From Patescibacteria group bacterium (GTDB lineage: Bacteria; Patescibacteriota; Patescibacteriia; Patescibacteriales; GWC2-42-12), in assembly GCA_028703305.1 (NCBI GenBank), contig JAQVNC010000004.1, positions 1 to 41,971 on the forward strand: a stretch of 41,971 nucleotides of DNA. Direction: 5' to 3'. The notes beneath the pieces are model-generated. The model was not told the DNA's origin, did no database searches, and saw nothing but the letters and a program-made list of their open reading frames with translations. A program made the translations under genes and the position numbers. Below are positions 12,050 to 39,182 of the stretch, in pieces. Numbering within the stretch: the first letter of the stretch is position 1; each line of letters begins with the position of its first letter.

Positions 12050-12448
12050 ATGCAGGACCAATTGCAAAAAGCGATTAATTTGGCGAAAAAAACCGGTGAT
12101 AAATTGATTGTTTTTGACAGTTCAAAACCGGACAACATGTTTGTGGTAATGTCTTTAAAAGATTATGAAAATTTGGTTTTAGGTAAGAGTGAAGTTAGGG
12201 GGTTGACAGAAGATGAATTACTTGATAAAATAAATCGCGATATCGCAATCTGGAAAAGCGACCAAGAAGAGGCGCAAAATTTTGAGATGATTCCGGATTA
12301 TTTCAGGGAATTGCCGGCTAAAGAAGAAAGTTCTGAAAAAGCCATGAAAAAAGCGGGAAAAAGCTGGACAATCCCTTCAAGAAGAAAAATAAACGCCGAA
12401 GAAATAATTGAAGAAGATCGGCAGTATTTGGAAGAACTGGCATTTTAA
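12050..12448 (+). CDS. hypothetical protein (N-terminus antitoxin-like)
   Basis: 132-aa ORF preceded by a consensus promoter; N-terminal ...VFDSSKPDNMFVVMSLKDYENLV resembles Phd/YefM-type antitoxins only weakly. Confidence 0.65.
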   Translation: MQDQLQKAINLAKKTGDKLIVFDSSKPDNMFVVMSLKDYENLVLGKSEVRGLTEDELLDKINRDIAIWKSDQEEAQNFEMIPDYFRELPAKEESSEKAMKKAGKSWTIPSRRKINAEEIIEEDRQYLEELAF

Positions 12449-12585
12449 AAACTTTTTTAGAAAAAGTTTTTTCCCGCAAGGGGATGATAAATATTTTCCC
12501 CTAAAGGGATAAACAAAAAATATAATGTATCAACTTAAAATTTAATAGCGAGTAGAACTCTACGGCCATTAAATTTTAAGTTGAT
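12449..12585 (+). promoter_or_regulatory. leader element B1: A/T hairpin + TATAAT + perfect 18-bp stem-loop
   Basis: Arms ATCAACTTAAAATTTAAT (12529-12546) / ATTAAATTTTAAGTTGAT (12568-12585), loop AGCGAGTAGAACTCTACGGCC. Confidence 0.85.
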
Positions 12586-12608
12586 GAAAATTATAATTAA
12601 TAATATAG

Positions 12609-12683
12609 ACGGCTGGGAGCCCGGCCTTATTTAAATAATAAGGGCAAATAACTCCGTCCGCCAGTCGGCGGATCGGAGGCCGT
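12609..12683 (+). promoter_or_regulatory. putative structured tuf 5' leader
   Basis: ACGGC (12609-12613)/GCCGT (12679-12683) could close over hairpins CCTTATTTAAATAATAAGG and CTCCGTCCGCCAGTCGGCGGATCGGAG. Confidence 0.5.
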
Positions 12684-12698
12684 TAAGGAAAAATAAAT

Positions 12699-13889
12699 AT
12701 GGCAGCTGAAAAATTTGAACGCACAAAACCCCATGTTAACGTGGGAACAATCGGCCATGTTGACCATGGCAAAACAACCTTGACTGCCGCTATGTTAGCG
12801 GTGTTAAAAAGCAAGGGCTTTAAATCGTCCGAAAAAAATGTTGATCAGATTGACGCGGCTCCGGAAGAAAAGGCTCGCGGCATTACTATCGCCACTTGCC
12901 ACGTTGAATATGAAACCGAAAAAAGGCATTATGCTCACGTAGATTGTCCCGGTCACGCCGATTATGTTAAGAACATGATTACCGGCGCGGCTCAGATGGA
13001 TGGAGCCGTACTCGTGGTAGCGGCCACTGACGGACCGATGCCTCAAACCAGAGAACATATTGTGCTCGCCAGGCAGGTTGGCGTGCCTTACATAGTTGTT
13101 TTCTTAAATAAATGCGATATGGTTGAAGACAAGGAATTAATTGACTTGGTTGAAGAAGAAATTCGCGATTTATTAAAGAAATATGAATTCCCGGGCGATA
13201 CTACCCCGATTATCAGGGGTTCAGCCTTAAAGGCTTTAGAAAATCCTAACGGAGAATACGGCCAAGCGATTATGGATTTAGCCAAGGCTTTGGATGATTA
13301 TATTCCGGAACCTAAACGCGATACTGATAAGTCATTTTTAATGCCGGTTGAAGATATTTTCTCAATTGAAGGCCGCGGCACAGTCGTTACCGGCAGAATT
13401 GAAAGAGGCGTAATCAAAGTGAACGAAGAAGTTGAAATAGTCGGTTTGCGCGATACGCAAAAAACCGTGGTTACCGGCGTGGAAATGTTTAATAAGTCTT
13501 TAGACCAAGGACAAGCCGGAGACAATGCCGGATTATTATTGCGCGGCACTAAAAAAGATGAAGTTGAAAGAGGTCAAGTTTTAGCCAAACCGGGCACGGT
13601 TACTCCCCACACTGAATTTGAAGGCGAAGTCTTTATCTTAACTAAAGAAGAGGGCGGACGCCATAAACCGTTTTTCAAAGGCTATAAACCTCAATTCTAT
13701 ATTCGCACCACTGATGTTACCGGCGAAGTTGAATTGCCGGAAGGCACTGAAATGGTAATGCCAGGCGATACGATAAATTTGAAAATCAAATTGATTTCTC
13801 CAGTGGCCCTAGAAGAAAAGCAGAGATTCGCTATTCGCGAAGGCGGCAGAACCGTCGGCGCCGGCGTGGTTACTAAAATTATTAAGTAA
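12699..13889 (+). CDS. tuf: elongation factor Tu
   Basis: [43 protein letters not shown], full length. Confidence 0.98.
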
Positions 13890-13897
13890 GCATTTAG

Positions 13898-13921
13898 TCC
13901 CGCCCATGATTATGGACGGGA
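13898..13921 (+). terminator. hairpin after tuf, possible weak terminator
   Basis: TCCCGCCCATGATTATGGACGGGA stem-loop; T-tract poor. Confidence 0.35.
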
Positions 13922-13974
13922 TTATAATGTATATTTGATACATTAATGTTTGTAACATTTAAATTTAAAAAAAC

Positions 13975-14352
13975 ATGACCGAAGTTAAAGACAAAAAGAA
14001 GGTAAAGGCGATAGAGGCCAAATCAGAAATAAAAACTAATGAAGATTCTAAGCAAAGAATCCGCATTAAGATTAAGGCTTTTGACCATAAGATTATTGAC
14101 CAGTCAACCAAGAATATTATTGATACGGCTACTAGGACCGGAGCCCAAATTTACGGCCCCATACCCTTGCCAACAGAGAAGAAAAAGTATACGGTTAACA
14201 GTTCAACCTTTGTCCATAAAGATTCACGCGATCAGTACGAAATTAGAATCCATAAAAGATTGGTGGATATTATTGAGCCGACGGCTAAAACCATAGAATC
14301 TTTAACCAACCTAGGCCTGCCGGCCGGAGTTGATGTGGAAATTAAAATGTAG
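13975..14352 (+). CDS. rpsJ: 30S ribosomal protein S10 with charged N-terminal extension
   Basis: [40 protein letters not shown]. Confidence 0.96.
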
Positions 14353-14374
14353 TCCTCCGCTAAAGCTACGGACT
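14351..14374. repeat. palindromic repeat F1 (AGTCCTCCGCTAAAGCTACGGACT)
   Basis: Near-identical to 21597-21620; overlaps the rpsJ stop codon. Confidence 0.8.
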
Positions 14375-14484
14375 ATAAATATAATTTGTAAGCAGTTTAT
14401 TTTATATATAATATTAATGAAGTTTTAAGCGGCTCTCGCAAGGGAAAGTGCTTAAAAAATAATTAATATAATAGCGAGGTAAAA

Positions 14485-14594
14485 TTCAACAAAAATCAGT
14501 AAAAATTAAATTCTGCATTTTGGGAATTAATTTAAGCTAACCGCCAAAAGATGCGGTTTATGACTGGTTTGTTGAACAACCCAGTTTTTGTTTT
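14485..14594 (+). promoter_or_regulatory. putative rplC leader attenuator (terminator hairpin plus competing helix)
   Basis: Terminator-like ACTGGTTTGTTGAACAACCCAGT (14563-14585) + TTTTTGTTTT; upstream TTCAACAAAAATCAGT (14485-14500) can pair with ACTGGTTTGTTGAA (14563-14576). Confidence 0.5.
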
Positions 14595-14602
14595 AAAAAA
14601 AT

Positions 14603-15352
14603 ATGAAGTTTATAATTGGAAAAAAAATTGAAATGACCCAGGTTTGGCAAGGTGAAAAAGTAATCGCCGTGACCAAAGTTCAAGCCGGCCCTTGTCCGGT
14701 GGTTCAGTTAAAAACCGCCAACAGCAAAGATGGCTATACGGCGGTTCAGCTTGGTTTTGGCGAAAGGAAAGAAAAAAATGTTAATAAGCCTCAAGTCGGT
14801 CATTTGAAAAAAGCCGGCCTAGCTTCTAAAAATGGAAAAACTTTAAGATATTTATGTGAATTCAGAGATGAAGTTAAAGATTTAAAAGTTGGCGATATAG
14901 TGGATGTTAATACTTTTGAAATCGGCGATAAGATAAAAGTTGTCGGCACTTCAAAAGGCAAAGGTTTCCAGGGCGGCGTTAGAAGGCATCATTTTCATGG
15001 CCACAATTCCACCCATGGCACCAAAGATCAGGTTAGAACCGGCGGATCAATCGGCGCCGGCGGCCCGCAGCATGTTTTTAAAGGCTTAAGAATGCCTGGC
15101 CGCATGGGCAACGCCAGGTCAACCGTTAGTAATTTAAAAATTGTTCAGATGGATAAAGAAAATAATATTTTATATATTAGCGGCGCGGTGCCGGGCGCGA
15201 GAAACGGTTTAGTTTTAATTTCAGGAGAAGGAGAACTAAAAACTGTGGCGCCAGCCGTAGAAAAGGCGGAAGAAGTTAAGCCGGAAATCGCAACCGAGGA
15301 AACTGTCGTGGAAGCAAAAACCGAAGCGCCGGCAGAAGAAAGTAAAAAATAG
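14603..15352 (+). CDS. rplC: 50S ribosomal protein L3 with acidic C-terminal tail
   Basis: GFQGGVRRHHFHGHNSTHGTKDQVRTGGSIGAGG. Confidence 0.97.
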   Translation: MKFIIGKKIEMTQVWQGEKVIAVTKVQAGPCPVVQLKTANSKDGYTAVQLGFGERKEKNVNKPQVGHLKKAGLASKNGKTLRYLCEFRDEVKDLKVGDIVDVNTFEIGDKIKVVGTSKGKGFQGGVRRHHFHGHNSTHGTKDQVRTGGSIGAGGPQHVFKGLRMPGRMGNARSTVSNLKIVQMDKENNILYISGAVPGARNGLVLISGEGELKTVAPAVEKAEEVKPEIATEETVVEAKTEAPAEESKK

Positions 15353-15366
15353 TTAATTATAATAAA

Positions 15367-15395
15367 TCTGGATTCCCGCCTTCGCGGGAATGACA
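15367..15395. repeat. short palindromic repeat family E, copy 2
   Basis: CTGGATTCCCGCCTTCGCGGGAATGACAA. Confidence 0.8.
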
Positions 15396-15402
15396 AAAGG
15401 GT

Positions 15403-16062
15403 ATGTCAATTAAGATAAAAGTCTACAACCAAAACGCCGAAGCGGACGGGGAAATGGAACTTTCGCCAAAAGTTTTTGGTATGAAAGTAAATCAGGATTT
15501 AGTGCACCAGGCCACGGTAACACAGATGGCTAACGAACGGCAGGTTATTGCCCATACCAAAGATAGAAGCGAAGTCAGAGGCGGCGGCAGAAAGCCTTGG
15601 CGGCAGAAAGGCACCGGCCGAGCGCGCCATGGTTCAAGCCGATCTCCGATTTGGATTGGCGGCGGCGTAACTTTCGGCCCGAGAAATGATCGGAATTTTA
15701 AAAAGAGAATCAATAAAAAGATGAAGCAAAACGCCATACTGATGGTTTTATCGGATAAGGCGGCTAATGATAATTTTATAATTTTAGATAAATTGGAAGC
15801 GGCGGCTTTTAAAACCAAGGTTTTTAATAAAATTATTGATGGTTTTGAAGCTAAAATTTTTAAATCTAAAAAAGGCGCTAAACGCAGTTTCTTAATAATT
15901 GTTGACAAAGGCGATGAAAAATTAAGCTGTTCGGCCAGGAATTTAACCGGCATTAAATTGATAAATACGGAAAATATTAATATAGTGGATTTATTGAAAT
16001 ATAAAAATTTGATTTTAAATAAAGCGGCGGTTGAGAAATTAACCGAGAGATACGGTAAATAA
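15403..16062 (+). CDS. rplD: 50S ribosomal protein L4
   Basis: RSEVRGGGRKPWRQKGTGRARHGSSRSPIWIGGGVTFGP. Confidence 0.97.
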   Translation: MSIKIKVYNQNAEADGEMELSPKVFGMKVNQDLVHQATVTQMANERQVIAHTKDRSEVRGGGRKPWRQKGTGRARHGSSRSPIWIGGGVTFGPRNDRNFKKRINKKMKQNAILMVLSDKAANDNFIILDKLEAAAFKTKVFNKIIDGFEAKIFKSKKGAKRSFLIIVDKGDEKLSCSARNLTGIKLINTENINIVDLLKYKNLILNKAAVEKLTERYGK

Positions 16063-16067
16063 AAAAT

Positions 16068-16538
16068 ATGGGTTTATTTAATAAAAAAATTGAAGAAAAA
16101 AAGAAACCGGCGGTTGCTTCCGCTAAAGTTAATAATGCTAAAAGCGCGGTAAAAATGGACGAGGAAGCTAAAAGCATGAAAGATTTATATGGCGCCGCGG
16201 AAGCTGGAAAAACCAAGTCAACGGTTAAGGCCGGCGAAAAAAAATCGGTTGGCGGCAATGCTTATAAGATAATTATGAAGCCGTTAGTCACGGAAAAAGT
16301 AAGCGGTTTAGGCGCTTTAAATAAATATGTTTTTGCCGTAGCTAAAAATGCCAATAAAATTGAAGTGGCTAAGGCCATTAAAGAAATTTATGGCATTAAG
16401 CCGATCGGCGTGAACGTAATTAGAATGAGCGGCAAAAAAACGCGCTATGGCCGTATTAGCGGCCGAAGAAAAGATTGGAAAAAGGCGATTATAACTTTGC
16501 CTAAAGGCGAAGCGATTAAAATTTACGAAGGCGTATAA
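16068..16538 (+). CDS. rplW: 50S ribosomal protein L23 with long N-terminal extension
   Basis: IMKPLVTEKVSGLGALNKYVFAVAKNANKIEVAKAIKEIYGIKPIGVNV. Confidence 0.94.
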   Translation: MGLFNKKIEEKKKPAVASAKVNNAKSAVKMDEEAKSMKDLYGAAEAGKTKSTVKAGEKKSVGGNAYKIIMKPLVTEKVSGLGALNKYVFAVAKNANKIEVAKAIKEIYGIKPIGVNVIRMSGKKTRYGRISGRRKDWKKAIITLPKGEAIKIYEGV

Positions 16539-16540
16539 AC

Positions 16541-16648
16541 TTTAAAAACTTTTTCAGAAAAAGTTTTTAATATTTTCAAAAAATATAATGTATCAAGTAA
16601 AAATTTAATAGCGGGTAGAACCCTACGGCCATTAAATTTTTACTTGAT
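16541..16648 (+). promoter_or_regulatory. leader element B2 upstream of rplB
   Basis: A/T hairpin, TATAAT (16584-16589), arms ATCAAGTAAAAATTTAAT (16592-16609)/ATTAAATTTTTACTTGAT (16631-16648), loop AGCGGGTAGAACCCTACGGCC. Confidence 0.85.
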
Positions 16649-16657
16649 AATAGAAAT

Positions 16658-17491
16658 ATGGGAATAAAAAAAGTAAAACCTACATCACCTGGCAGAAGAT
16701 CGGCGACTTTTGATGATTTTTTAGATATTACTAAAACCGAACCGGAAAAAAGCCTGATTGTTATAAAAAAGGGCCAAGCCGGCAGAAACAACCAAGGCAA
16801 GATTACGGTAAGGCATCAGGGCGGCGGCGTTAAAAGATATATTCGCTTGATAGATTTTAAGCGGGATAAATTTGATATACCCGGGAAAGTCATGTCAATT
16901 GAATATGATCCTAACCGCGGCGCCCGCATCGGTTTGATAAATTATAAAGACGGAGCCAAAAGATATATTGTTATGCCGGTAGGCTTAAATGTCGGCGATG
17001 AAATTTTAAGTTCAAAAAATCAAATTGAAATAAAAACCGGCAATGCCATGCCAATTAAATTTATTTTACCGGGCATCGGAGTCTACAATATTGAATTAGA
17101 GCCGGGCCGCGGCGCTAAAATCGCCCGCAGCGCCGGAATTTTGGTTTTTGTCATGGGCGTTGAAGGCAACTACGCTCAGGTTAAAATGCCTTCAGGCGAG
17201 ATTAGATTAGTCAATAAAGAATGCCTTTGCACAGTCGGCCAAGTTAGTAATCCGGACAGAAGGCATATTACCATAGGTCGAGCCGGACGGCAGAGATTAT
17301 TAGGCGTTAGGCCGACGGTTAGAGGCACGGCCATGAATCCGGTTGATCACCCGCATGGCGGCGGTGAAGGCAAGCAGTCTATCGGTTTAAAGCATCCGAA
17401 AACCAGATGGGGCAAACCGGCTCTGGGAGTTAAAACCAGAAAAAATAAAAAAAGATCAAATAGATTAATTGTTCAAAGAAGAAAAAAATAA
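16658..17491 (+). CDS. rplB: 50S ribosomal protein L2
   Basis: GRGTVVxx-type L2 core: [45 protein letters not shown]. Confidence 0.98.
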
Positions 17492-17502
17492 TACAATAAT
17501 AT

Positions 17503-17814
17503 ATGTCTAGATCACTTAAAAAAGGACCATACATAAACGAAAGATTATTGAAAAAGATTAAGGCTTTGCGCCCCGGCGATAAGACCATAATTAAAGTTTG
17601 GGATAGGTCTTGTACGATTACGCCGGAAATGGTAGGTTTTACTATTGGCGTGCATAACGGCAAATTGCATATTCCGGTTTTGGTGGTGGAAAATATGGTC
17701 GGGCATAAATTAGGAGAATTTTCTCCGACCAGAAAATTTGTCAGCCATGGCGGCAAGATGGCTAAAGATCAGGCTAAAGCCGCCGCCCCGGCTCCTGCTC
17801 CGGTAAAAAAATAA
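17503..17814 (+). CDS. rpsS: 30S ribosomal protein S19
   Basis: [19 protein letters not shown]...[22 protein letters not shown]-rich tail. Confidence 0.97.
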
Positions 17815-17847
17815 CTATAAAGATATAATTTAGAATTTATTTATAAT

Positions 17848-18432
17848 ATGGAAGTTAAAGCAAAAGCAAAATTTATCAGGATGTCGCCGATTAAAGTGCG
17901 CTTGGTGGCCAACCTTATTCAAAAGATGCCGGTTGAAAAAGCTTTGAATCAGCTGCAGTTTATCAATAAACTAGCCAGCGGTCCGGTGGCCAGTTTGATT
18001 AAATCGGCCATAGCTAACGCCGAGCATAATTTTGAACTGAAAAAAGATAATTTATTTATAAAAGAGTTAACGGTTAATCAGGGCCCGACTTTAAAACGTT
18101 CAATGCCTCGGGCGCATGGCCGAGCTACTCCGATTAGAAAAAGAACCAGCCATATTAATTTGGTTTTGGGCGAGATTAAAGCTTCCGGTGTTGTTAAAGC
18201 GAAAAAGCAAGAAATTGCCGCGCCGGTAAAATTAGAAGCCCAGCCTAAAAAAGAGGCAACGGTTAAATTAAAAGATTCGGTTAAAGAGGAGGTTGTTGAA
18301 TCTAAAGACGGCAGTACTAAAGAAAAAGGCAAAGTTATAGTTGATCCGAGGATGGAAGGCCGGGGCGGGCATGCTAAAATAGAGGGTGGCAAAGGCTTTG
18401 CCACAAAAATGTTTAGGCGCAAAAGCGGTTAA
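17848..18432 (+). CDS. rplV: 50S ribosomal protein L22 with long C-terminal extension
   Basis: KFIRMSPIKVRLVANLI...GPTLKRSMPRAHGRATPIRKRTSHINLVL followed by about 85 lineage-specific residues. Confidence 0.95.
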   Translation: MEVKAKAKFIRMSPIKVRLVANLIQKMPVEKALNQLQFINKLASGPVASLIKSAIANAEHNFELKKDNLFIKELTVNQGPTLKRSMPRAHGRATPIRKRTSHINLVLGEIKASGVVKAKKQEIAAPVKLEAQPKKEATVKLKDSVKEEVVESKDGSTKEKGKVIVDPRMEGRGGHAKIEGGKGFATKMFRRKSG

Positions 18433-18452
18433 TTAATTGTTAAAAGTTATAT

Positions 18453-19139
18453 ATGGGTCACAAAGTAAATCCAAAAGTTATCAGATTGAATATCACCAGG
18501 ACTTGGCCGTCTAAGTGGTTTAGTACTGGAAAAAATATGATTAAATGCTTAGAGCAGGATGTTAAAATCAGAAAATTTTTGTTTAATGAATTGCGCGAAG
18601 CCGGATTGGATCGGGTTGAAATAGAAAGAAGCGGCCATAAAGTTACTATCGGAGTCTTTACGGCTAAGCCGGGAATTATTATCGGCCGCGGCGGCAGCGG
18701 AGCCGGAGATTTAAAAAAGAAATTGCATGATAAATTTTTAAAGAATTTTAGATTGGCTGATATAAATTTAAATATCACGGAATTTGACAGGCCGAATTTA
18801 AGCAGCATGATTATCGCCCAGGCCATGGCGATTGACATTGAAAAAAGAATGCCGTTCAGGCGCGTTATGAAGCAAGCGATTAATAAAGTGGAACGAGCCG
18901 GCGCTTTAGGCGTAAAAGTCGTTGTTAGCGGCCGGCTTAACGGTTCGGAAATCGCCCGCACGGAAATGCTGACTTCGGGCAAGGTTCCATTGCACACTTT
19001 AAGGGCTGATATTGATTTTGCCAAAACTACGGCCAGAACCACTTACGGAGCTATCGGCATAAAATTTTGGATATATAAGGGAGATATATTTAAGAAAGAA
19101 GAAGCCGGTAAAGGCGAAATCGTAGGGGAAAAGCTTTAA
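18453..19139 (+). CDS. rpsC: 30S ribosomal protein S3
   Basis: MGHKVNPKVIRLNITRTWPSKWF...PGIIIGRGGSG. Confidence 0.97.
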   Translation: MGHKVNPKVIRLNITRTWPSKWFSTGKNMIKCLEQDVKIRKFLFNELREAGLDRVEIERSGHKVTIGVFTAKPGIIIGRGGSGAGDLKKKLHDKFLKNFRLADINLNITEFDRPNLSSMIIAQAMAIDIEKRMPFRRVMKQAINKVERAGALGVKVVVSGRLNGSEIARTEMLTSGKVPLHTLRADIDFAKTTARTTYGAIGIKFWIYKGDIFKKEEAGKGEIVGEKL

Positions 19140-19242
19140 AAACTTTTTCAAAAAAAGTTTTTAATATTTTCAAAAAATATAAGGTATCAAGTTAAAATTT
19201 AATAGCGAGTAGAACTCTACGGCCATTAAATTTTAACTTGAT
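19137..19242 (+). promoter_or_regulatory. leader element B3 upstream of rplP
   Basis: A/T hairpin, TATAAG, arms ATCAAGTTAAAATTTAAT (19186-19203)/ATTAAATTTTAACTTGAT (19225-19242), loop AGCGAGTAGAACTCTACGGCC. Confidence 0.85.
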
Positions 19243-21412: not shown

Positions 21413-21598
21413 ATGGCAAGAACAGCATTGATCGTAAAATCAAAAAAGAAACCAAAATTTTCCACCCGCATTGTCAGGCGTTGCTGGCGCTGCGGCCGCA
21501 ATCACGGCTTTATGAGAGATTTCGGCATTTGCCGCATTTGCTTTAGAGAGTTAGCCTCAAATACCGATATACCAGGGGTAACTAAATCGAGTTGGTAG
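21413..21598 (+). CDS. rpsZ: 30S ribosomal protein S14 type Z (zinc-binding)
   Basis: [27 protein letters not shown], CxxC...CxxC. Confidence 0.95.
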
Positions 21599-21620
21599 TC
21601 CTTCGCTAAAGCTACGGACT
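21597..21620. repeat. palindromic repeat F2 (AGTCCTTCGCTAAAGCTACGGACT)
   Basis: One substitution from F1; overlaps the rpsZ stop codon; followed by the same TATAAATATAA. Confidence 0.8.
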
Positions 21621-21669
21621 ATAAATATAAAATAATTTTGCATTTTGATTTTTAAACTTTAAACTACAT

Positions 21670-22092: not shown

Positions 22093-22194
22093 GATTTGGG
22101 TAGATTTTATAAAATTTTCTACTGCGGAACTCGCCCGAGATTACTCGGGCTCAAACAGTCCTCGCACGAAAATTTTACAAAATCCACCCAAATC
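22093..22194. repeat. structured element C1
   Basis: 27-nt arms (22093-22119 / 22168-22194) with 2 mismatches; core CTGCGGAACTCG-[GCCCGAG ATTA CTCGGGC]-TCAAACAGTCCTCG. Confidence 0.85.
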
Positions 22195-23141: not shown

Positions 23142-23149
23142 ACCTTTGA

Positions 23150-23214
23150 AAACTTTTTCCCCGCAAGGGGATAAACAAAAAATATAAAGTATCAAGTAAA
23201 GATATTAAATTTAT
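23150..23214 (+). promoter_or_regulatory. decayed leader element B4 upstream of rpsE
   Basis: AAACTTTTTCCCCGCAAGGGGATAAACAAAAAATATAAAGTATCAAGTAAA matches the 5' half of B1/B2; loop and 3' arm are missing. Confidence 0.6.
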
Positions 23215-24340: not shown

Positions 24341-25612
24341 ATGTACGATAAGTTAATACAAATTTGGAAAGCGCGCGATTTAAGAAATAGCATACTTTTT
24401 GTTTTGGGCATGCTGGTCATTTTTCGCTTGGCCGCGCATATCCCGGTTCCAGGGGTTGACACCCAAGCGCTTAAAGATTTTTTTGCTTCTAATCAGATTT
24501 TGGGCCTTATGAATATATTCGCTGGCGGCGGTATGGCTAATTTTTCCATTGTCATGATGGGCGTCGGGCCATACATTACTTCATCAATTATTTTTCAGCT
24601 CTTAGCCATGATTATTCCTAAGTTGGAAGAGATGAATAAAGAAGAAGCTGGACGGCAAAAAGTTAATATGTGGACTCGCTGGATGACTGTGCCTTTAGCC
24701 GTGCTTGAAGCTTACGGTATGATTACGCTACTTCGCCGGTCTTCGTCTTTAATTTTAGGCGATATCAGCCCGTTCAGTTTGGCTACTATGATTATAACCG
24801 TGGCCGCGGGTACGGTTTTTCTGATGTGGCTGGGCGAATTAATAACAGAGAAAAAAGTCGGCAACGGCATTTCTTTATTGATTTTTGCCGGCATTGTTTC
24901 CGGGCTGCTCCAAACCGCCCAGCAGGTAATAGTTACTTTTGACCCGTCGAAATTGTATATGATTTTAGGCTTTTTAGCCATTGCCCTAATAACCATAGTC
25001 GGCGTGGTTATAATTAACGAAGGCCAGCGCAATGTGCCGGTGCAATATGCCAGGCAAATCAGAGGCAACCGTATGTTCGGCGGCACTTCAACCCATCTGC
25101 CTCTGCGCGTTAACATGGCCGGAGTGATTCCGATTATTTTTGCCATTTCCGTGGTAATTTTTCCGCCCATGATAGCGCAATTTTTTGTGCACGCGCGCAC
25201 GGCTTTTATCGCCAACGCGGCGGAGTGGACTATCGGCTTTTTTCAAAATCAATTAGTCTACGCGATTTTATATTTTTTACTGGTTTTTGCTTTTACATAT
25301 TTTTATACAGAAGTTATTTTTCATCCAACTCAAATTGCGGAAAATTTACAGAAACAAGGCGGTTTTATCCCGGGCATTAGGCCGGGTCGGCATACCAGCG
25401 AATATTTAGCCAATACTACGCATAAAATTATCTTTGTCGGCGCTTTATTTTTAGGCATTATTGCCATCTTGCCTTTGATTTTAAGGTATTTTACCGGTTT
25501 GCAATCTTTAACTATCGGCGGCACCTCGCTTTTAATCGTAGTCTCGGTAGTGATTGAAACCGTCAAGCAGATTGAATCGCAGCTGACTATGAGAGAATAC
25601 GAAGGTATGTAG
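24341..25612 (+). CDS. secY: preprotein translocase subunit SecY
   Basis: LFRLAAHIPVPGVD-like start, GVGPYITSSIIFQLL, QRNVPVQYARQIRG. Confidence 0.97.
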   Translation: MYDKLIQIWKARDLRNSILFVLGMLVIFRLAAHIPVPGVDTQALKDFFASNQILGLMNIFAGGGMANFSIVMMGVGPYITSSIIFQLLAMIIPKLEEMNKEEAGRQKVNMWTRWMTVPLAVLEAYGMITLLRRSSSLILGDISPFSLATMIITVAAGTVFLMWLGELITEKKVGNGISLLIFAGIVSGLLQTAQQVIVTFDPSKLYMILGFLAIALITIVGVVIINEGQRNVPVQYARQIRGNRMFGGTSTHLPLRVNMAGVIPIIFAISVVIFPPMIAQFFVHARTAFIANAAEWTIGFFQNQLVYAILYFLLVFAFTYFYTEVIFHPTQIAENLQKQGGFIPGIRPGRHTSEYLANTTHKIIFVGALFLGIIAILPLILRYFTGLQSLTIGGTSLLIVVSVVIETVKQIESQLTMREYEGM

Positions 25613-25627
25613 ATAGATTTGGTATAA

Positions 25628-25768
25628 TTCGGCTAAGGTAAATTATTTCCTGCTTAGATGAAATTGTAGCGATTTTTTACAAAAAATTAAGAGGTAAGAA
25701 AAATAATTTTTTGTAAAAAATCGCTACAATTTCATATGCGCGATAAAATAATTTACCCCAGCCGAATA
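25628..25768. repeat. structured element D1
   Basis: 32-bp perfect stem (25658-25689 / 25704-25735) plus an outer stem around 25628-25649 / 25746-25767. Confidence 0.85.
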
Positions 25769-25829
25769 TTAATGCACTCCATATTGATGGGGTTTTTTGT
25801 TTGGTAAATTTATGATATAATAAGGTAGT

Positions 25830-27944: not shown

Positions 27945-28750
27945 TTACCATTAAAAAAGACAATGAGATAGAATTATTGCGCCAAGGCGGAAAAATTTTA
28001 GGGCAGATATTAAAACAATTGGCGGCTGAAGTAAAGCCCGGCGTAACCACGGGCCATTTAGAGCAAATGGCCGATTTTTTAATTAAAAAGGCCGGGGGCA
28101 GGCCCGCTTTCAAAGGTTTTAAATCGGACGCTGATGACAAGCCTTATCCGACGGCTTTATGCGCTTGCATAAATGACGAGGTAGTGCACGCGCCTTCTTT
28201 GCCATCGCGAGAATTAAAGTCAGGCGATATTATCAGTATTGACGTAGGCATGGAATTTCCCTTCTACGCTCCGCAAAAAGGCAAGCCTGCCAAGAACGGC
28301 TATTATACTGACATGGCGGCTGCCGTGGCCGTGGGTAAAGTTAGCCGGGAAGCGCAAAAATTAATCAGAGTGACTAAGCAGGCGCTGGCTCTAGGCATAA
28401 AGCAAGTTAGGCCCGGCAATAGCTTAAATAATATCGGCAAAGCGATTGAACAATACGCAAAGGCCAATAATTTTTCCGTGGTGCGCGATTTGGTCGGCCA
28501 TGGCGTTGGCTATGAATTGCATGAAGACCCGCAGGTGCCTAATTATGATTTAAGCTATAGCAAAAAAGTGATTTTAAAACCAGGCATGGTTTTAGCTATT
28601 GAGCCCATGATTAATATCGGCGATTGGCGCATTAGGGATGGGGCGGATGGTTTGACTATTTTAACTGCCGACGGCAGTCTAAGCGCGCAGTTTGAGCATA
28701 CGGTTTTAGTGACGGAAACGGGTCATGAAATATTGACGAAGTATGAGTAG
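27941..28750 (+). CDS. map: type I methionine aminopeptidase
   Basis: GHGVGYELHEDPQVPNY, IDVGMEF, FEHTVLVTETG. Confidence 0.95.
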   Translation: MITIKKDNEIELLRQGGKILGQILKQLAAEVKPGVTTGHLEQMADFLIKKAGGRPAFKGFKSDADDKPYPTALCACINDEVVHAPSLPSRELKSGDIISIDVGMEFPFYAPQKGKPAKNGYYTDMAAAVAVGKVSREAQKLIRVTKQALALGIKQVRPGNSLNNIGKAIEQYAKANNFSVVRDLVGHGVGYELHEDPQVPNYDLSYSKKVILKPGMVLAIEPMINIGDWRIRDGADGLTILTADGSLSAQFEHTVLVTETGHEILTKYE

Positions 28751-28754
28751 CACC

Positions 28755-28893
28755 GCTTGGGGAATTTTTTTTTCTGCTTAGATAAAATTTGGACGTTTTT
28801 TTAAAAATTATTTTAATTAAATATATTAAGAGGTGATAATTTTTCAAAAAATCGCTACAATTTTATATGCGCGATAAAAAAATTCACCAAGCT
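28755..28893. repeat. structured element D2 (imperfect copy)
   Basis: Shares CTGCTTAGAT(A/G)AAATT, TTAAGAGGT and AAAAAATCGCTACAATTT(C/T)ATATGCGCGATAAAA with D1. Confidence 0.8.
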
Positions 28894-29316: not shown

Positions 29317-29340
29317 AATTACGCTGTTTTCTTAATTGCA

Positions 29341-29438
29341 TATAGGGTTAGTTAAAATTAATGATTTTTCTCGCTGCGGAACTCGCTACGCTCAAACAGT
29401 CCTCGCTTCAAAAATAATTAATTTTAACTAACCCTTTA
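29341..29438. repeat. structured element C3
   Basis: 26-nt arms AGGGTTAGTTAAAATTAATGATTTTT / AAAAATAATTAATTTTAACTAACCCT with 1 mismatch; core CTGCGGAACTCGCTACGCTCAAACAGTCCTCGC. Confidence 0.85.
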
Positions 29439-29452
29439 TTATAAATAACAAG

Positions 29453-30438: not shown

Positions 30439-30485
30439 CTTGCTAAAATAAGGAAAATAGGGTAGGATATTAGTATTAAATATAA

Positions 30486-30530
30486 TCTGGATTCCCGCTT
30501 TCCCGCCAGAGGACAAGCGCGGGAATGACA
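30486..30530. repeat. short palindromic repeat family E, copy 3 (longer loop)
   Basis: CTGGATTCCCGCTTTCCCGCCAGAGGACAAGCGCGGGAATGACA. Confidence 0.75.
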
Positions 30531-33000: not shown

Positions 33001-33104
33001 AAGTTTGGGATTAATTTAGCAAATTTTCTACTGCGGAACTCGTCCGCCTGCTGGCGGACTCAAACAGTCCTCGCACGAAAATTTACCAAATTAATCCCAA
33101 ACTT
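33001..33104. repeat. structured element C2
   Basis: 28-nt arms (33001-33028 / 33077-33104) with 2 mismatches; core CTGCGGAACTCG-[GTCCGCC TGCT GGCGGAC]-TCAAACAGTCCTCG. Confidence 0.85.
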
Positions 33105-37383: not shown

Positions 37384-37412
37384 TCTAGATTCCCGCCTAC
37401 GCGGGAATGACA
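37384..37412. repeat. short palindromic repeat family E, copy 4
   Basis: CTAGATTCCCGCCTACGCGGGAATGACAA. Confidence 0.8.
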
Positions 37413-37423
37413 AAGAGAAATTT

Positions 37424-39083: not shown

Positions 39084-39145
39084 GCTAAGTGGTTGTCCGG
39101 GTTTGTTTGTGATATAATTATTAGAGAAGAATTTTAATTAAATAA

Positions 39146-39182
39146 TCTGGATTCCCGCCTGCCTGTCCGGTAGGCAGGCCTG
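39146..39182. repeat. short palindromic repeat family E, copy 6 (divergent, 3' half altered)
   Basis: TCTGGATTCCCGCCTGCCTGTCCGGTAGGCAGGCC. Confidence 0.6.

Follow-up and report, generated by a model that had tools for sequence, protein, structure and literature searches.

Family B, a hairpin repeat recognised in a 41,971-nt stretch of a Parcubacteria-type genome (the window), is probably a small, non-autonomous, mobile palindromic element similar to MITEs or REPs that belongs to one Parcubacteria-type order. It looks mobile because 27 gaps are filled in this genome (G000, 925 kb), whereas most of the same gaps are without family B in the closest relatives. The earlier note described three copies that precede tuf, rplB and rplP as a shared cis-acting 5' leader. 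These three 57-nt hairpins, each with perfect 18-bp arms around a 21-nt core and with matched changes in the arms, were verified exactly in coordinates and sequence. They lie on the forward strand at 12529-12585 (core AGCGAGTAGAACTCTACGGCC), 16592-16648 (core AGCGGGTAGAACCCTACGGCC) and 19186-19242 (core AGCGAGTAGAACTCTACGGCC), as supported by sequence, fold and covariance-model match. Upstream of all three we also found the A/T hairpin and TATAAT or TATAAG, which ends 2 nt 5' of the stem in 3/3 cases; the TATAAT of the first copy (12521-12526, +) was delimited by sequence and hexamer conservation. The 57-mers fold with -24 kcal/mol each, corresponding to z values of -7.0 to -8.9 against dinucleotide shuffles, and 0/200 shuffles reached an equal value (n=3).

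The long hairpin forms the right-hand part of a unit of approximately 110-140 bp (109-143 bp in the window), in which an A/T hairpin starting with CTTTRAAAAC is followed by a conserved AAAAATATAANGTAT linker, reading AATATTTTCAAAAAATATAAN-GT, and then by the long hairpin. On the forward strand, the unit before tuf spans 12443-12585, with a linker that carries two small palindromic inserts (repeat families D1/D2/D9), and the congener G001 has no family B in this gap. For the unit before rplB (16540-16648, +), the rplW-rplB gap is without family B in G001, G002 and G003, the last of which holds a different insertion there. The unit before rplP (19134-19242, +) faces rpsC-rplP gaps without family B in G001 and G003, and its CTTTAA includes the rpsC stop codon (19137-19139). 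The unit has no terminal inverted repeat spanning its whole length; it begins with CTTTRAAAAC, ends with TTGAT and consists of two internal hairpins. The arms of the long hairpin vary yet remain self-complementary around the fixed core of AGCG, a small hairpin and CTACGGCC. Among 21 copies of this genome, 98.8% of pair cells hold standard pairs, 10 pairs display double-sided changes and the covariation score is 0.290, as against 0.106 after shuffling and no more than 0.059 in slid controls. Across the family the inner hairpin is GRGY-ARA-RCYC, followed by UACGGCC. An inner GUAG/CUAC pairing, the best fold in the three window copies, was rejected as the family structure as it is broken in 14-15 of 21 copies. 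Departures from stem pairing comprise 8 G-U and 6 A-C cases in 59 copies, which are small numbers; as G-U is not in clear excess over A-C, pairing looks strand-symmetric, as for DNA, and gives no hint that the RNA strand in particular is under selection.

Some family-B copies are interrupted in the linker or first hairpin by small extra palindromes such as CCCCTAAAGGGATAAAC, which sits in the linker of the first copy (12498-12514, +; identified by sequence) and has no counterpart in most other copies. The tiny palindrome CCCNNNARGGGATAAAC (window 12498-12514 and 23160-23176, and several further copies of this genome) occurs inside family-B units at TTTTC|AAAA points, which looks like a smaller element inserting into the larger one. 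Repeat search and spacer clustering also revealed a relic unit before rpsE (about 23142-23200, +) that retains the left end, a small palindrome and AAAAATATAAAGTATCAAGTAA but is missing the long hairpin. A second relic of this kind lies at C25:9791. In another genome, three diverged units are closely spaced in tandem (L062 and L070; G022:C54:58323-58806).

A degenerate core pattern retrieved 21 copies from the genome, and the covariance model built from those 21 raised the number to 27. The three copies noted earlier are thus real, but that scope was too narrow given the genome-wide total plus relics. All 27 copies sit between co-directional genes according to our own simple and approximate gene calls; since 86% of sampled gaps are co-directional, this placement says little alone. 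The left end of the unit adjoins or provides the upstream stop codon, with the stop codon being supplied for rpsC, rpmI and others. Twenty-four copies are oriented to the start of the next gene, with a distance from stem to start codon of usually 8-17 nt, and three are reversed inside operons (infA-rpmJ, rpsO-NYN and C37:3094). Downstream genes include tuf, rplB, rplP, rplY, rplJ, rpsK, rpmI, rplT, nusB and a ribosome-hibernation factor (PF02482), as well as the unrelated genes for enolase, for ATP synthase alpha and for pili. These identities have Pfam support, and thrS, pilT and hrcA are among further genes identified by reading the sequence. The matches of the covariance model are biased to translation genes: ribosomal-protein or EF-Tu genes follow 8/24 sense copies where ~5% would be expected (binomial p 1.6e-5, with a 5% background assumed). 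The bias of family B to ribosomal-protein genes is real. In this genome, the six copies with TARAAC at the apex of the hairpin are all located before ribosomal-protein or EF genes (6/6, Fisher p 2e-4). The other copies have different apices, mostly CAAAG. Elsewhere TARAAC was found in G010 (before rplV and rpsG) and G018 (before rplF); in these three genomes, which represent two families, it precedes no other kind of gene.

The comparison with the same-genus genomes G001-G003, by joined-flank searches and alignments, covered 20 of the 27 sites, the metagenome-assembled genomes being fragmentary. Family B was missing in every recovered congener gap at 19 of these 20 sites, including those of tuf, rplB, rplP, rplY, rplJ, rpmI and rplT where recovered, and at 16 of these 19 the gap is short and empty in one congener or more. 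The lone exception is the gap behind a pilT-like gene, which is filled in G003 also. This comparison is unpolarised and fits both gain in this genome and loss in the congeners. No clear target site duplication was detected; where the alignment is close, gap lengths match within a few nt and a duplication of 0-2 nt is possible. Within the order, family B is patchily spread, with 16/111 genomes positive, 27 copies in this genome and 1-7 in each other one. Of 380 genomes sampled from the phylum as a whole, G000 was the sole positive, and GTDB records with the family-B core include Parcubacteria, Patescibacteria and Falkowbacteria. Carriage by phages was considered and rejected, the core pattern being missing from viral contigs.

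Copies can be nearly identical across families: the one before rplF in G018, from another family of the order, is 98% identical to a copy of G010. A number of gaps contain family B in two genomes, namely those of rpsG, rplV, rplM, rplY, nusB, rpsO-NYN and two pilus-linked gaps. Where the same gap is filled in different genera, the copies are in most cases not each other's closest relatives; in the rpsO-NYN gap this holds for two copies that are both reversed. On this basis, shared descent of same-gap copies was rejected for most gaps. It is retained for nusB, where the copies of G000 and G006 look inherited and some sites would therefore be old. The shared occupancy is explained either by independent insertion at strongly preferred sites or by copies converting one another; concerted evolution by gene conversion could imitate independent insertion.

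Family B shows features of MITEs in being a short non-coding repeat with many dispersed copies and in having empty orthologous sites in relatives. We infer that it transposes with the help of a putative enzyme that would recognise the core when it is folded, in single-stranded or extruded DNA. New copies would be placed just 3' of stop codons in gaps between tandem genes, without clear target duplication, and the left end of the inserted unit would often contribute a new TAA. The sense orientation and the preference for ribosomal-protein genes may then arise from selection against harmful insertions or from a preference for highly transcribed gaps.

How far does the alternative of a genuine cis-acting 5' leader account for these data? 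In this reading, which we consider unlikely, a promoter starts transcription at the stem base, the hairpin stabilises the mRNA or binds a shared regulator, and copies are gained and lost fast between species. The strong structural constraint, the 24/27 copies that face the next gene at a short distance, the excess of ribosomal-protein and EF genes and the restriction of TARAAC to such genes would all agree with it, as would the two relics, which retain the linker with TATAA despite their missing long hairpin. The earlier proposal of a shared leader does stand in regard to covarying structure and translation-gene bias. The statement that it is not a known ribosomal-protein leader was also borne out, since at the gathering score Rfam yielded only two tRNAs in the window and at a lax E-value around the tuf copy only sub-threshold, implausible matches. 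However, an inherited leader of these genes is not supported: family B is missing from nearly all orthologous gaps of the congeners, is patchy in the order, precedes unrelated genes and is reversed in 3/27 copies, with one reversed case recurring in another genus. The promoter role of the candidate -10 is likewise doubtful. In a sigma70 -10 box, A(-11) and T(-7) are expected to be conserved. The A of the hexamer is invariant in the copies of this genome, whereas the key last T, found in 16/27 own and 10/33 other copies, is its least conserved base; AAAAATATAA and the G two bases 5' of the stem are nearly invariant in 60 copies. The stem departures reveal no clear tolerance of G-U, which also speaks against a leader. 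We give a rather small chance to partial domestication of the hairpin cassette, in which the TARAAC apex would be bound by a translation-linked factor that co-regulates ribosomal-protein and EF-Tu genes, with the regulon rebuilt in separate lineages.

Selection could also act on the mere presence of an RNA hairpin between genes, whatever its sequence, as a junction stem for mRNA processing (e.g. by RNase III) or 3'-end protection that any repeat family may fill. Unrelated hairpins indeed occupy some of the same gaps in congeners, at rpsO-NYN, rplT, prepilin and glycosyltransferase in G003, at nusB and atpA in G001-G003 and at rplY in G001. Yet approximately 39% of tandem gaps are strongly structured in both G000 and G003, so that the roughly 11/18 in G003 exceeds this background only weakly, and for many gaps there is a congener in which nothing is inserted. 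The idea that these gaps are selected to hold a hairpin of any kind was rejected for the weakness of this excess, and we regard this explanation as improbable. We consider it very unlikely that family B derives by reduction from an IS200/IS605-type element, or is a REP relative, and is moved in trans by a Y1 transposase. IS200/IS605 elements have two hairpins and no clear target site duplication, and family B resembles them in both respects. Y1 genes are present in 8/13 genomes of the family, and the reverse strand of the core has the order GGCC-GTAG-hairpin, with the tag that marks GTAG REPs (PMC3733652). Against this, we saw no extended copy whose ends enclose a gene, and copy number does not follow the presence of Y1: no Y1 gene was detected in G010, which has 7 copies, or in G012, which also carries family B. 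The search of Y1 genes (PF01797) identified no family-B transposase. Mobilisation by the Y1 gene of G000 is not supported, as this gene is accompanied by its own, different palindromes. The earlier note had named a known transposable repeat as an outcome that would speak against a leader; a transposable repeat does fit better, but no known repeat family matches.

Spacer clustering uncovered several further repeated palindrome families in the genome. One, at 22093-22194, 33001-33104 and 29340-29439 of the window, has long copy-specific self-complementary arms and the common centre CTGCGGAACTCG...CTCAAACAGTCCTCGC. Another (window 25612-25829 and 28750-28866; L232, L240 and L246) combines the core CTGCTTAGATGAAATTT...CTACAATTTCATATGCGCGATAA with locus-specific, closely matched arms of up to ~28 bp. 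A REP-like CTGGATTCCCGCCTTCGCGGGAATGAC repeat (window 15360-15397, 30479-30516, 37384-37414 and 39139-39160) belongs to the second-largest spacer cluster, which comprises 31 gaps in the roughly half of the genome that the clustering covered. The repeat GTAGTCCTYCGCTAAAGCTACGGACTATAAATATAA occurs with 97% identity at 14349-14384 and 21595-21630, and its AAAGCTACGG resembles the family-B core. Congener gaps that correspond to family-B sites sometimes hold unrelated hairpins, for example of the TACGAATTACGAATT types (L205-L212, L163, L169, L177, L178, L180). Finally, a single Y1 transposase-like gene (L127, 39-677) has AGCGGTCGGACCGCT palindromes within its reading frame and just upstream.

If family B is mobile, small palindromes invade the ribosomal-protein operons of bacteria with reduced genomes, with a turnover so fast that the same gap in congeners holds different hairpins. 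Covarying repeats in such genomes need not be conserved riboregulators, which calls for caution. The system also lets one ask, in a natural setting, whether hairpins inserted into ribosomal-protein operons are only tolerated or are put to use. Should domestication be true, a transposable repeat would have assembled new regulons of ribosomal-protein genes in separate lineages. The literature that our search covered contained no report of repeats like family B in CPR bacteria.

Among known systems, the ribosomal-protein leaders of Rfam (e.g. L10, L20 and S15) share with family B a structured element directly 5' of ribosomal-protein genes; unlike these, its core also precedes unrelated genes, is not conserved by orthology and has no Rfam match. 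Non-autonomous elements derived from IS200/IS605 have two hairpins near their ends as well, but no family-B copy contains a transposase gene, and any cleavage and guide motifs in family B would be putative. REP elements, too, adjoin upstream genes at their 3' end, for which they provide stop codons (PMC3733652). Family B resembles the GTAG REPs of the REP/RAYT system in its dispersed intergenic palindromes near upstream 3' ends, in termini that supply stop codons and in the GTAG beside a hairpin on the reverse strand, where the reverse complement of the core, GGCCGTAGAGCTTTGCTCGCT, has GTAG 5' of a short palindrome. It differs in its size and 18-bp outer stem compared to REPs of 20-40 bp, in the position of the tag inside a large hairpin and in that the Y1 search found no linked RAYT gene. 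Promoters and RNase III sites are found in MITEs such as Correia elements (PMC10969869), and like family B these are short non-coding repeats mostly just 5' of genes with promoter-like sequence, the hairpins of Correia elements being processable in RNA; family B differs from them by having neither unit-spanning terminal inverted repeats nor clear target duplication. Family B behaves like REPs and MITEs, but it departs from defining features of each, namely in unit size, in a linked transposase and in terminal inverted repeats, and is placed in neither group.
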